Origin: Pseudomonadota bacterium | Lineage (GTDB): Bacteria > Pseudomonadota > Gammaproteobacteria > Burkholderiales > Burkholderiaceae_C | Direction of reading: 5' to 3' | DNA length: 62,158 nt | Assembly (NCBI GenBank): GCA_031119395.1 | Contig: JAVHYA010000025.1 | Span: 1 to 62,158 of the forward strand | Part shown: positions 55,988 to 62,158 of the stretch, one piece after another | Layout of the letters: each line of letters begins with the position of its first letter | Position numbering within the stretch: position 1 is the stretch's first letter | Made by a program: the position numbers and the translations under genes | Notes under the pieces: model-generated | What the model was told of the DNA's origin: nothing | Seen by the model: the letters and a program-made list of their open reading frames with translations, nothing else | Database searches by the model: none

Positions 55988-57934
55988 TCAGGCGGCCAGC
56001 AGGCCGCTCACGCGCTGGCGCAGGGCTTCGGGCTGCACCTCCACAGGCGGCACGGCCGCACCCACGTTGAGGCCGACCCGGCTGAACAGGCCCCGGCGGA
56101 ACGGGCGCACCATGGCGACGCTCTCGCCGCGGCGCTGCTCGATGCGGCTGAAGAAGGAGCCCCAGAGGTTGGTCAGTGCCATCGGAATCACCGGCGCTTC
56201 GATGCCCTCGGCACGGGCGAGTTCCATGATCTTCATGACGCCGCCCTTGAAGGGCTGCAACTGGCCGTCGCGCGTGATCGCGCCTTCGGGAAAGATCGCC
56301 AGCAGGTCGCCCTCGCGCAGCACCTTCACGGCCTCGGCGAAGGCGCGCTCGTAGGCGGCCGCGTCTTCCTTCTGCGGCGCGATGGGAATCGCCTTGGCGA
56401 GGCGGAACATCCAGCCCAGCACCGGCACCTTGAAGATGCGGTGGTCCATGATGAAGCGGATGGGGCGCGGGCTGGCCGCCATCAGCAGCACCGCGTCGAT
56501 GAAGCTCACGTGGTTGCACACCAGGACGGCCGGGCCGTCGGTGGGGATGTGCTCGTCGCCCTTGACGTCGAAGCGGTAGACGAAGCGCGACAGCACCCAC
56601 GCGACGAAACGCAGCAGGTACTCCGGCACCAGCATGAAGATGTAGAACGCGACCACCGCATTGGCGATGCCGGTGAACAGGAAGATCTGCGGGATGCTGA
56701 AGCCCGCACCCAGCAGCGCGCCGGCGATGGCCGAACTGCCGATCATGAACAGCGCGTTGAGGATGTTGTTGGCCGCGATGATGCGCGCGCGGTGCGTGGG
56801 CTGGCTGCGCAGCTGGATGAGCGCGTACATGGGCACGCTGTAGAGCCCCGCGAAGAGCGACAGCAGCGCCAGGTCGGCCATGACGCGCCAGTGCGCGGGC
56901 TGCGAGACGAAGGCCGCGGCACCCATCTCGGCCGAAGGCGGCAGCCCGCGCGAGGCGAAGTACAGGTCGATCGCGAACACGCTCATGCCGATGGCGCCCA
57001 GCGGCACCAGGCCGATCTCGACCTGGCGGCGCGAGAGCGTCTCGCACAGCAGCGAGCCGACGCCGATGCCCACCGAGAAGACCACCAGCAGCAACGACGC
57101 CACCTGCTCGTTGCCGTGCAGCACCTCCTTGGCGAAGGCCGGGAAGTTGCTCAGGAACACGGCACCGAAGAACCACATCCACGAGATGCCCAGCAGCGAG
57201 CGGAAGACGACGATGTTGCCGTGCGCGAGCTTCAGGTTGTTCCAGGTCTCGCTGACGGGGTTCCAGTTGATCTTCAGCGCCGGGTCGGTGGCAGAGGTGT
57301 CGGGAATCGCCTGTGCCACCGCGCGTCCGGCAAGCGCCAGCAGCACGCAGCCGACGGCCACCGTTGCATGCCCCACACCCGGCAGCGCCACCAGCAGCCC
57401 ACCCGCCACCTGACCGAGCAGGATGGCGACGAAGGTGCCCATCTCGACCATGCCATTGCCGCCCGTGAGCTCGCGCGCATCGAGCACCTGCGGCAGGTAG
57501 GCGAACTTCACCGGGCCGAAGAGCGTGGAATGCAGCCCCATGAGGAACACGCAGGCCAGCAGCACCGGCACGTGGGCGCTGACGAACCCCCAGGCCGCGA
57601 GCGCCATGATCGCGATCTCGAGGTTCTTCACCAGCCGGATGATCCGCGTCTTGTTGTACTTGTCGGTCAGCTGACCCGCGGTGGCCGAGAAGAGCAGGAA
57701 GGGCAGGATGAACAGCGCACCGATCACCAGCCCCGCCATGGCGGGCTGCATCCAGGCCACCTGCAGCTGGTAGGTCACCATCACGGTGAAGGCGAACTTG
57801 AAGAGGTTGTCGTTGGCGGCGCCCGCGAACTGCGTCCAGAAGAAGGGCGCGAAGCGGCGCTGGCCCAGCAGCGCGAACTGGTTGGCGTGCGCATTCGCAC
57901 CCGGGTGCGTGGGGTTGCTGGCGGTGGTGCTCAT
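55988..57934 (-). CDS. LplT-like MFS transporter fused to 1-acylglycerol-phosphate acyltransferase
   Basis: 648 aa. The N-terminal about 420 residues form an MFS transporter (QRRFAPFFWTQFAGAANDNL, the LplT-type start; FSATAGQLTDKYNKTRIIRL). The C-terminal about 200 residues form a PlsC-type acyltransferase with NHVSFIDAVLL (H-x4-D), FPEGAITRDGQLQPFKGGVM and PVIPMAL. The closest known logic is lysophospholipid uptake and reacylation (LplT plus Aas); the acyl-ACP/CoA synthetase domain of Aas is absent. Start ATG 57934 with GAGGG upstream. Confidence 0.93.
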   Translation of the reverse strand: MSTTASNPTHPGANAHANQFALLGQRRFAPFFWTQFAGAANDNLFKFAFTVMVTYQLQVAWMQPAMAGLVIGALFILPFLLFSATAGQLTDKYNKTRIIRLVKNLEIAIMALAAWGFVSAHVPVLLACVFLMGLHSTLFGPVKFAYLPQVLDARELTGGNGMVEMGTFVAILLGQVAGGLLVALPGVGHATVAVGCVLLALAGRAVAQAIPDTSATDPALKINWNPVSETWNNLKLAHGNIVVFRSLLGISWMWFFGAVFLSNFPAFAKEVLHGNEQVASLLLVVFSVGIGVGSLLCETLSRRQVEIGLVPLGAIGMSVFAIDLYFASRGLPPSAEMGAAAFVSQPAHWRVMADLALLSLFAGLYSVPMYALIQLRSQPTHRARIIAANNILNALFMIGSSAIAGALLGAGFSIPQIFLFTGIANAVVAFYIFMLVPEYLLRFVAWVLSRFVYRFDVKGDEHIPTDGPAVLVCNHVSFIDAVLLMAASPRPIRFIMDHRIFKVPVLGWMFRLAKAIPIAPQKEDAAAYERAFAEAVKVLREGDLLAIFPEGAITRDGQLQPFKGGVMKIMELARAEGIEAPVIPMALTNLWGSFFSRIEQRRGESVAMVRPFRRGLFSRVGLNVGAAVPPVEVQPEALRQRVSGLLAA

Positions 57935-57994
57935 GGAGGGTCCCTCGGCGTCGACCGGCGGCACCTGCGTGCCGCAGCTTCTTCTTGGATGGCC

Positions 57995-59728: not shown

Positions 59729-59769
59729 GCCATCGCGCGGGGTGCCTCGCCGGGCCGGCGACGATCGCC

Positions 59770-59980
59770 GGTTGCAGGAGCGCGGGCGCCACCACGACGG
59801 CGCCCCACCGAAGGCGCAAACGCCCATCAACGCTCAGGTGGACCGCCCCGGGTCCGACAACTGCCCCGCCACATCGCCGTCTGGAGAGACACCGCGCACG
59901 CGGTGCACCGAAGGAGCAAGTGCCGCAACCGTTGCCGGCGCGAAACTCTCAGGGTCCAAGGACAGGGGGAGCGGCAACCC
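59770..59980 (+). ncRNA. Tandem glycine riboswitch (first copy, upstream of dead dadA)
   Basis: Two glycine aptamers in series. First: TTGCAGGAGCG, CACCGAAGGCGCAAACGCCC, CGCTCAGGT (59772-59864). Second: CTGGAGAGAC, GCACCGAAGGAGCAAG, CTCTCAGGGTCC, GGACAGGGGGAGC (59880-59975). Fits the known cooperative double-aptamer class. The gene after it is a wreck. Upstream, where the second copy has TACAAT, this copy has GACGAT (59760-59765), so its promoter may also be lost. Nothing else is visible in 59729-59769. Confidence 0.9.
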
Positions 59981-60029
59981 ATGGGACAGTCGAAGCCGGC
60001 ACCACCACCCCGGGTGCCGCGCGCCGCCA

Positions 60030-60506
60030 ACGCGCTCGGCCGCGAGGGCAGCTTCCGCGACTCGGCATGCCTCCACCTTTGTCGCCGAACTCGTCTTCCT
60101 GTGCCGGGCCGCCGGGGTGCGCTTCCTTGCGCGCCACACGGTGGCGGCCCTGCGACGCACGCGGGGCCGCGGCTCTCACGTCGATGCGGTGGACGCGCAG
60201 GGCGAGCCCGTCGCGCTGGAGGCCGATGCCTTCGTGCTGGCCCTGGGGCCGGCCAGCATGCGCCACGCGCGCGACGCGGGGATCGAGCTGCCCCCTGCGC
60301 TTCGTGCGCGAATACCGCCTGGGCATCCCGACGCTCCCCGGGGCGCCGCTGCGGCAGCACGCGCTGCAGCGCGGCGGCAGCGCCTCGACGATCGACCTCG
60401 CAGGCCCGTGGGCCCCGCAAGCCGCCCGTTTCCTGGCCTTGCGTCGATCGCGCACATCGCCACCGGCCTTCGGCCCGAAACCGCCTTGGCGTTCACCGGC
60501 CTGTGA
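60030..60506 (+). pseudogene. Decayed D-amino-acid dehydrogenase (dadA-like) fragment
   Basis: Pieces of the same protein family as the intact gene at 60857. One frame has EGSFRDSA; a shifted frame continues STFVAELVFLCRAAGVRFLA and ALEADAFVLALGPASM, parallel to ANRFTRELAKRAEAAGVQF and LSADAFVLAMGSFSPM. The end IAHIATGLRPETALAFTGL (stop at 60506) parallels IARIVTGLAPEVDFAFQGV. The N-terminal half and parts of the middle are deleted and frames are shifted. Confidence 0.82.
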
Positions 60507-60512
60507 AAGTGC

Positions 60513-60542
60513 TTGGTGGCAGCGCGGCGCGCCTCCTACAAT
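60513..60542 (+). promoter_or_regulatory. Probable promoter of second riboswitch-dadA unit
   Basis: TTGGTG (60513-60518), 18-bp spacer, TACAAT (60537-60542), just before the first aptamer of the second riboswitch. It begins six bp after the pseudogene stop. Confidence 0.55.
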
Positions 60543-60548
60543 CGCGCC

Positions 60549-60770
60549 CTTGCAGGAGAACGGGCGACGCCACCGGCGGCACCCTACCGAAGGCGCAAAC
60601 TCCCATAAACGCTCAGGTCTGCCCGATGCACGCGATGCACGGGCCCGTACTGCAAGCCATCGTCAGAGCCGTCTGGAGAGCCATCCCACCGAGGGATGCA
60701 CCGAAGGAGCAAGCCCGTTGCAGGTGCAGCGGGTGAATCTCTCAGGTACCGAGGACAGGGGGAGCGGCAA
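60549..60770 (+). ncRNA. Tandem glycine riboswitch (second copy, controlling dadA)
   Basis: First aptamer: TTGCAGGAGAACGGGCG, CTACCGAAGGCGCAAACTCC, CGCTCAGGT (60550-60654). Second: CTGGAGAGCC, GCACCGAAGGAGCAAGCCC, CTCTCAGGTACC, GGACAGGGGGAGC (60672-60767). Both aptamers keep the conserved cores. It lies in the leader of the intact D-amino-acid dehydrogenase gene, so glycine probably controls that gene; this class usually turns genes on. Confidence 0.92.
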
Positions 60771-60853
60771 CTTGAACCGTCGGTTCGGGTTGCTATCTTT
60801 TCAATAGCTGCTCCCGCCCGCCGTTCAAGCGCTGCAACCTCAAAAGGTTCAAG
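60771..60853 (+). promoter_or_regulatory. Putative riboswitch expression platform
   Basis: CTTGAACC (60771-60778) can pair with GGTTCAAG (60846-60853), which overlaps the AAAAGG ribosome site four nt before the dadA ATG. The same GAACC can instead pair locally with GGTTC (60782-60786). These exclusive pairings could hide or free the ribosome site. A dispersed repeat lies between them. Confidence 0.5.
60790..60842 (+). repeat. Dispersed GATAGC-type repeat in the dadA leader
   Basis: TTGCTATCTTTTCAATAGCT, then GCTCCCGCCCGCC and CAAGCGCTGCAACC, in the same order as the copies at 25494 (reversed) and 45134. It sits between the riboswitch and the start codon, inside the arms of an eight-bp inverted repeat. 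Confidence 0.65.
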
Positions 60854-60856
60854 AAA

Positions 60857-62158
60857 ATGCGCGTGATCGTCCTCGGCGCCGGCCTGCTCGGCACCTCCTC
60901 CGCCTACTTCCTTTCCCAACTCGGCCACGACGTGACCGTGGTCGACCGCCAGGCCACGCCGGGCGCCGAGACCAGCTTCGCCAACGGCGGGCAGATCTCG
61001 GTGAGCCATGCCGAGCCCTGGGCCAACCCCAGCGCGCCGCTGAAGGTGCTGCAGTGGCTGGGCAAGGAAGATGCGCCCCTGCTCTTCCGGCTGCGGCCCG
61101 ACCTGCGCCAGTGGCTGTGGGGCCTCGCGTTCCTGCGCGAATGCACGCCGGCGCGCACGCGCCACAACATCGAGCAGATCGTGCGCCTGGGCACCTACAG
61201 CCGCGACACGCTGCAGCAGCTGCGCCGCGACACGGGCATCGACTACGACCAGCGCACGCAGGGCATCCTGCACTTCTACACGACGCAGAAGGAGTTCGAC
61301 GCCGCCCTCGCCCCGGCCGAGCAGATGCGCCAGCTCGGCTGCGAGCGCCGCGTGATCTCGGCCGACGAGGCCGTGGCACTCGAACCGGCGCTGGCGCACA
61401 TCCGCCCGCAACTGGCCGGAGCCACCTACACGGCGGAAGACGAGTCGGGCGACGCCAACCGCTTCACGCGCGAATTGGCCAAGCGCGCCGAGGCGGCGGG
61501 CGTGCAGTTCCGGATGGGCCACACGATCACCGCGCTGCGCGAGGTGGGCGGGCGCATCGACCATGTCGAGGTGACCGACACCGAGGGCCGCTTCCAGCGC
61601 CTGTCGGCCGACGCCTTCGTGCTGGCGATGGGGTCGTTCAGCCCGATGCTGGCGGCGCCGCTGGGCGTGCGGCTGCCGATCTACCCGGCCAAGGGCTACT
61701 CGGTGACGATGCCGGTGAAGGACGCGTCGATGGCGCACCAGGTCTCGCTGACGGACGACGAGTTCAAGCTGGTGTTCTCGCGCCTCACGGGACCGAACGG
61801 CGACCGCCTTCGCATCGCAGGCACGGCCGAGCTCAACGGCTACGACCGCGACCTCAATGCGGTGCGCTGCGAGGCGATCGTGCGTCGTGTGGAGCAGCTC
61901 TTTCCCGGCGCGGGCGACACCACGCAGGCGCAGTTCTGGACCGGGCTGCGACCGGCGACGCCGAGCAACGTGCCGATCATCGGCCGCAGCAAGGTGCCGA
62001 ACCTGTTCCTCAACACGGGCCATGGCACGCTGGGCTGGACGCACGCCTGCGGTTCGGGCAAGTCGATCGCGCGCATCGTGACGGGGCTGGCGCCGGAGGT
62101 GGACTTCGCGTTCCAAGGCGTGGTGAAGGGCTCGGCGGGGGTCGTGCGGCCGGTGGCG
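60857..62158 (+). CDS. dadA: D-amino-acid dehydrogenase (DadA family), cut by window end
   Basis: 434 codons without a stop, near the usual full length. FAD-dependent, membrane-associated oxidation of D-amino acids (or glycine-like substrates) to oxo acids and ammonia. Seen: VIVLGAGLLGTSSAYFLSQL (dinucleotide fold), VVDRQATPGAETSFANGGQI, DESGDANRFTRELAKRAEAA, YPAKGYSVTMPV, GLRPATPSNVPIIGRSK and NTGHGTLGWTHACGSGK. A riboswitch that binds glycine lies in its leader, so glycine is a likely substrate or signal. ATG 60857 follows AAAAGG. Confidence 0.93.
   Translation, partial: MRVIVLGAGLLGTSSAYFLSQLGHDVTVVDRQATPGAETSFANGGQISVSHAEPWANPSAPLKVLQWLGKEDAPLLFRLRPDLRQWLWGLAFLRECTPARTRHNIEQIVRLGTYSRDTLQQLRRDTGIDYDQRTQGILHFYTTQKEFDAALAPAEQMRQLGCERRVISADEAVALEPALAHIRPQLAGATYTAEDESGDANRFTRELAKRAEAAGVQFRMGHTITALREVGGRIDHVEVTDTEGRFQRLSADAFVLAMGSFSPMLAAPLGVRLPIYPAKGYSVTMPVKDASMAHQVSLTDDEFKLVFSRLTGPNGDRLRIAGTAELNGYDRDLNAVRCEAIVRRVEQLFPGAGDTTQAQFWTGLRPATPSNVPIIGRSKVPNLFLNTGHGTLGWTHACGSGKSIARIVTGLAPEVDFAFQGVVKGSAGVVRPVA

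Follow-up and report, generated by a model that had tools for sequence, protein, structure and literature searches.

An old glycine riboswitch–dadA array in which the first gene has been lost and its riboswitch is probably eroding

Organization of the locus

The window, that is, the whole stretch of 62,158 nt analyzed here, corresponds to a complete contig, one of 167 in the 5.14-Mb draft genome G000. At its 3′ end, an HTH gene is followed by two successive units, each made of a tandem glycine riboswitch and a dadA-type gene or its remnant (Table 1). The first and second riboswitches are referred to as R1 and R2, and the gene behind each as dadA1 and dadA2. The stop codon of the HTH gene lies 36 nt upstream of the R1 match.

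Table 1. Features of the two-unit array in the window, with the evidence for each.
Feature	Position	Strand	Evidence
HTH gene, Cro/C1-type HTH domain, 258 aa	58952..59728	+	PF13443 E = 4.6e-11
Segment immediately 5′ of R1	59755..59765	+	Alignment with G010
R1 aptamer 1	59765..59855	+	RF00504 23.0 bits, below gathering score; CCGAAGG present
R1 aptamer 2	59871..59975	+	RF00504 51.3 bits
Predicted R1 platform hairpin	59971..60020	+	Minimum-energy fold, prediction only
dadA1 pseudogene remnant	60023..60506	+	Alignment to G010 dadA1; 4 deletions, 1-nt insertion, no start codon
Promoter-like site of R2: TTGGTG, 18 nt, TACAAT	60513..60542	+	Read from sequence
R2 aptamer 1	60543..60642	+	RF00504 29.2 bits, below gathering score
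R2 aptamer 2	60663..60768	+	RF00504 56.9 bits
Predicted R2 platform	60766..60815	+	13-pair stem then ATCTTTTC (60766-60794 and tail); GCTGCTCCC (60807-60815)
dadA2, D-amino acid dehydrogenase-type FAD oxidoreductase	60857..62158	+	NF001933 500.3 bits; PF01266 E = 1.4e-74

Four glycine aptamers forming two double riboswitches in about 1 kb had been proposed in an earlier sequence-only reading, and the RF00504 covariance model matches all four as two tandem elements on the plus strand. Against the RF00504 gathering cut-off of 32 bits, both elements score through their second aptamers, and both first aptamers fall below it. Taken alone, aptamer 1 of R1 (E = 0.07) is not significant in a whole-genome search. 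A weak RF00504 score says little by itself, since at E ≤ 10 matches also occur in 8 of 14 control genomes (two above the cut-off). This aptamer was accepted because it lies 15 nt upstream of the strong aptamer 2, keeps the CCGAAGG core and has low-scoring counterparts in genus-mates, where the first aptamers of the dadA elements reach 22.5–35.9 bits. CCGAAGG is present in two copies in R1 and two in R2, and the two elements are 72% identical over 251 aligned positions; glycine is the presumed ligand of both. With two aptamers, a short linker, CCGAAGG in both aptamers and a position in front of a metabolic gene, R1 and R2 resemble the tandem glycine riboswitch of RF00504. They differ from its usual form in that two complete tandem elements stand in about 1 kb, each having once served its own DadA-type paralogue. 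The same genome carries a further tandem pair (contig C103, L002, 6317-6543), with both aptamers above the cut-off (55.4 and 50.0 bits); the gene just downstream of it, recognized from its translation alone, is presumably gcvT-like.

The second riboswitch had been expected to lead into an intact dadA, and the reading frame behind it is indeed open: it runs for 434 codons from 60857 to where the contig ends, with its stop outside the window, against 435 codons in the G010 homologue. Its product passes the NF001933 cut-off for D-amino acid dehydrogenase (500.3 versus 383 bits), and its substrate is presumably an amino acid. Elsewhere in the window, Rfam family Bcj11 gives a match of 85.9 bits at 57119-57240 on the minus strand, wholly within a 658-aa open reading frame that is also on that strand (55988-57964); this RNA family may therefore reflect protein-coding conservation.

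State of the first unit within the genus

Fourteen other genomes of the genus were compared, with one genome per species. One of them, G010, holds the whole array in the order HTH gene, R1, dadA1 (417 codons), R2 and dadA2, and shows what the window has lost; its dadA1 matches exactly the one in JAFEEH010000091.1 (MAG ‘Proteobacteria bacterium isolate SZAS AMP-61’). Relative to G010, dadA1 of the window carries deletions of 140, 425, 60 and 181 nt and a 1-nt insertion at about 60291. The 140-nt deletion falls directly after the R1 hairpin and includes the start codon. With these disabling lesions against a whole orthologue, dadA1 of the window is a pseudogene.

The proposal that the first gene is decayed and dadA-like agrees with the protein comparisons, in which the remnant is 69% identical to G010 dadA1 over 102 residues (E = 4e-34) and 45% identical to dadA2 of the window over 75 residues. 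Its PF01266 match (E = 2.5e-5, 24.4 bits, over 60069-60290) stays below the cut-off of 27.9 bits, and three cuts of the remnant gave 24.4 bits, 25.9 bits and no match. The retained pieces differ from G010 by about 14% substitutions (65 of 471 positions). A search for dadA1 in the 15 genomes of the genus found it whole only in G010 and as a fragment only in the window, all other matches being at most 40% identical; within G000, no whole dadA1 was found elsewhere, the other matches being only 40% and 32% identical. The whole dadA1 product of G010 is a DAO-family protein (PF01266 E = 3.8e-39) and not a standard DadA by NF001933, where it scores 172.5 bits under the curated cut-off of 383; two Variovorax dadA1 proteins score 230.2 and 214.6 bits against the same model.

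Codons that change the amino acid are more frequent between window and G010 in the remnant (27 of 57) than in dadA2 (14 of 77; p = 0.0005). This excess was dropped as evidence for decay or against misassembly, as whole dadA1 also evolves fast. Likewise, the remnant's dN/dS against G010 (0.31) adds nothing to the lesions, because whole Variovorax dadA1 pairs give values on both sides of it.

In ten other genus-mates a dadA2-type gene is present without unit 1. Nine of these show the order HTH gene, one riboswitch and dadA2, with 352–524 nt between the genes, and the tenth, G001, gave no HTH match next to dadA2. The HTH gene beside dadA2 is 98–99% identical in four genus-mates and 81–83% in six. 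A single aptamer pair is present in each of G002, G003 and G014.

Constraint on the first riboswitch

Between the window and G010, R1 differs at 17 of 198 positions and R2 at 6 of 216 (p = 0.016). The end branches of the tree for R1 are 0.16 (window) and 0 (G010), and those for R2 are 0.037 and 0.007, respectively. The covariance scores follow: R1 has 23.0 and 51.3 bits in the window against 35.9 and 59.1 bits in G010, aptamer 1 being down by 12.9 bits, and the R2 scores are close (29.2 and 56.9 against 32.6 and 56.7 bits). When R1 elements from outside the genus are used to polarize the 17 differences, six are assigned to the window, three to G010 and eight are undecided.

The earlier claim of intact RNA cores is borne out by the CCGAAGG motif but needs qualifying for the wider set of conserved columns, defined as the 110 shared by 90% or more of 62 other elements: window and G010 differ there at 4 of 109 columns in R1 and at 0 of 110 in R2. 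Departures from these 110 columns number eight in R1 of the window and four in R1 of G010, all four of them shared, and R2 has none in either genome. The eight departures are not unique: between five and eight are seen in each of five R1 elements whose gene is whole (L049, 8; L048, L053 and L063, 6 each; L113, 5).

The R1 differences nevertheless avoid conserved columns (4 of 109, versus 13 of 89 elsewhere; p = 0.009). Because conserved columns have changed less, R1 was under constraint for a large part of the period since its lineage and that of G010 separated, and some constraint may persist. The overall rate of change in R1 is not clearly different from that of the dadA1 remnant (65 of 471; p = 0.07) or of dadA2 third positions (58 of 434; p = 0.11), and the onset of relaxation is therefore not placed. 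R1 was thus constrained until recently and is now probably relaxing, and it looks like a leftover that is starting to erode.

Predicted platforms and switching

The predicted R1 hairpin is formed by pairing of GCGGCA, located at the 3′ end of the aptamer region, with UGCCGC further downstream, as is also predicted in G010. The hairpin ends 2 nt before the first deletion and has no T-run; no start site stands behind it, that site having been removed by the deletion. Upstream of R1, 10 nt of G010 are absent from the window at 59754/59755, and the −10-like GACAAT of G010 reads GACGAT in the window (59760-59765).

No promoter-like site for R1 or R2 was found in the window at the scan threshold. 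The R2 site of G010, TTGGCG-18-TACAAT, passes the scan, whereas the TTGGTG version of the window does not. Before R1 of G010, no promoter-like site was found at that threshold either, so that the promoter argument against R1 is weak. In the terminator scan, neither the segment immediately after R1 nor the rest of the interval up to R2 gave a terminator-like site. Taken as a free glycine-binding RNA, as had been suggested earlier, the orphan R1 finds no support in these scans, which gave neither a promoter-like site for it nor a terminator-like site directly behind it. R1 may well have lost its transcription.

For R2, the terminator scan reported the 13-pair stem followed by ATCTTTTC; this is no more than chance gives, with one site found and 0.8 expected. 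In the predicted folds of both the window and G010, GCTGCTCCC pairs with the 3′ end of the R2 aptamer-2 region. Since this competing fold uses a strand of the aptamer-2 basal helix, R2 is proposed to be an ON switch, in which glycine binding would release dadA2. The ON switch is only a proposal, given that the minimum-energy R2 fold differs in three genus-mates (L038, L042 and L045).

Some of these features would also suit an R1 that still acts, whether as a glycine sensor in the tail of read-through RNA from the HTH gene, together with R2 in series on a long transcript reaching dadA2, or as a small RNA of its own. R1 starts 36 nt downstream of the HTH stop codon, the scan gave no terminator-like site between it and R2, the hairpin predicted as its platform is preserved up to 2 nt short of the first deletion, and its conserved columns have changed less than the others. 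Against such a function, R1 has changed faster than R2 and differs at four conserved columns, its aptamer 1 has lost score, 10 nt upstream of it are deleted, and ten other genus-mates keep R2 and dadA2 without any unit 1. We consider continued activity of R1 unlikely, and a little less likely again that R1 outlived its gene by taking a new role, whether glycine sensing within the HTH mRNA tail, serial switching with R2 on read-through RNA or action as a free glycine-binding RNA.

Age and distribution of the array

A scan of named genomes with G010 dadA1, from which 79 distinct loci were retained, places a dadA1-type gene in 25 of them, G010 counted. In 18 of these 25 loci dadA2 follows, namely in G010 and in 17 named Variovorax loci. 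In all 17 Variovorax arrays, one copy of the strict aptamer motif precedes dadA1 and two copies precede dadA2. A quick tree of 49 proteins, covering 19 of the 25 dadA1 loci, separates the 19 dadA1 proteins from 30 dadA2-type proteins with an SH-aLRT of 100, the G010 branch being long (1.33). Nine Variovorax pairs, hand-picked as close pairs, give dN/dS values of 0.09–0.36 for dadA1 and 0.03–0.10 for dadA2. As judged from these ratios, dadA1 is under purifying selection where it is whole and evolves faster than dadA2. The Variovorax distribution, the gene tree and the dN/dS values together indicate that the array is old and that dadA1 is a real gene elsewhere. Because the array stands in the same place, after the same HTH gene, in Variovorax and in the genus of the window, it is taken as ancestral in the genus, with losses. 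Among the matches listed in a family survey with G010 R1 (399 genomes, 148 matching), which scored two candidates per genome and is not a count of arrays, the window and G010 alone had two complete elements inside a 2-kb span.

These results bear on the first proposal for the locus, a tandem duplication of a riboswitch–gene unit caught in decay. Two tandem units are present, the first dead and the second alive; what does not stand is a recent duplication of one riboswitch–dadA unit with one copy decaying. The head-to-tail order of the units and the resemblance of their riboswitches would fit a recent event, and in the second-aptamer half a grouping of all R1 elements meets weak rejection (p-AU 0.031), which hints at some exchange between units, although about 100 columns are too few for a decision. 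The dadA1 and dadA2 proteins are, however, only about 40% identical and fall into the two separate groups of the tree, and the array recurs in the 17 named Variovorax loci. R1 of the window is 89% identical to R1 of G010 and 72% identical to the neighbouring R2. In the first-aptamer half the 25 R1 elements group together (support 90/93, not decisive), and in the whole-riboswitch tree both R1 elements of the window's genus join 22 of 23 other R1 elements (90/76, not decisive), with L048 outside. A recent duplication is accordingly very improbable, and the sequences point to an old array.

Further observations concern other features of the dadA1 loci. In Variovorax sp. J22P168 (L067:3030-5233), the reverse case is seen, with dadA1 following the HTH gene and lacking a glycine aptamer motif upstream. 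Unit 1 is preceded by a palindrome, GAAACCGGTT(T/C)C, located 306–330 nt before dadA1, in 17 of 25 dadA1 loci (L049-L056, L059-L062, L064-L066, L076 and L113); it was not found in G010. In many loci it stands just upstream of a TAAAAT-like hexamer and looks like a repressor operator. The 19 dadA1 proteins (including L035:4199-5452) lack the ETSFANGGQ motif of dadA2 in their first 75 residues; their first 40 residues are near those of dadA2, and divergence is sharp after about residue 40.

Core loss in first aptamers outside the genus

CCGAAGG occurs twice in all 29 R2 elements and in all 12 single elements sampled from loci with only dadA2. Among 25 R1 elements, it occurs twice in two (window and G010), once in 22 and not at all in one (L063). 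None of the 23 unit-1 first aptamers counted from the 24 dadA1 loci outside the genus (L048-L066, L068, L070, L076 and L113; L067, having no aptamer motif before dadA1, was left out) keeps CCGAAGG, which is replaced by CCGTTGG, CCGATGG, CCGCAGG, CCGTCGG and others. Given these varied forms, loss of the first core in unit 1 looks repeated or drifting. According to Crum et al. (2019; PMC6944388), singleton glycine riboswitches arise by context-dependent decay of one aptamer, and the core loss in unit 1 agrees with that model at the sequence level. In that source's terms, 22 of the 23 unit-1 elements outside the genus resemble a type-2 singleton with a ghost aptamer in keeping one core, in the second position; R1 of the window and of G010 are unlike it and keep both cores. 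R1 of the window was ruled out as such a singleton because CCGAAGG is present in both aptamers. Another candidate, in which the first core of R1 in G010 and the window was regained from R2 by conversion, is not favoured, since the R1 first-aptamer halves group together.

Interpretation and significance

The locus is best read, with good confidence, as an old R1–dadA1–R2–dadA2 array in which dadA1 has been lost by deletion, R1 is eroding and R2 still works. Each DadA-type oxidoreductase gene would once have been under its own glycine riboswitch. Deletions in the lineage of the window would then have removed the start codon of dadA1 together with the adjoining upstream stretch and the greater part of the gene, leaving R1 with no gene to control and now eroding. 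R2 would still act on dadA2: bound glycine would hold the aptamer-2 basal helix, making its 3′ strand unavailable to the downstream long hairpin or terminator, so that with glycine dadA2 would be made and its amino-acid substrate oxidized. An assembly error is the least probable account, for although the contig belongs to a draft of 167 contigs, with one genome per species, and G010 is likewise a draft, assembled from a metagenome, the combination of four separate deletions, one inserted nucleotide, a deletion upstream and about 14% substitutions in the retained dadA1 pieces is unlike the product of a single misjoin.

A riboswitch in front of a decayed gene is already known. At BP3410 of Bordetella pertussis, a Mn riboswitch precedes a gene inactivated by a losable 30-bp duplication and still responds (PMC8546581). 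The window resembles that case in the persistence of the riboswitch before a decayed gene and differs from it in that most of dadA1 is gone and R1 has begun to change. Tandem and serial riboswitches have been reviewed (PMC9481103). Full-text literature searches for ‘glycine riboswitch’ with Variovorax or D-amino acid dehydrogenase returned no paper, and papers pairing the term with dadA or FAD-dependent oxidoreductase concern other subjects, as judged by their titles.

The locus captures the point at which a riboswitch becomes parted from its gene. As the whole unit is present in one genus-mate, G010, and missing from others, it becomes possible to trace what happens to an orphan riboswitch. 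The Variovorax arrays bear on the passage from tandem to singleton glycine riboswitches, since in the same genomes the unit-2 elements keep both cores and the unit-1 elements are without the first.
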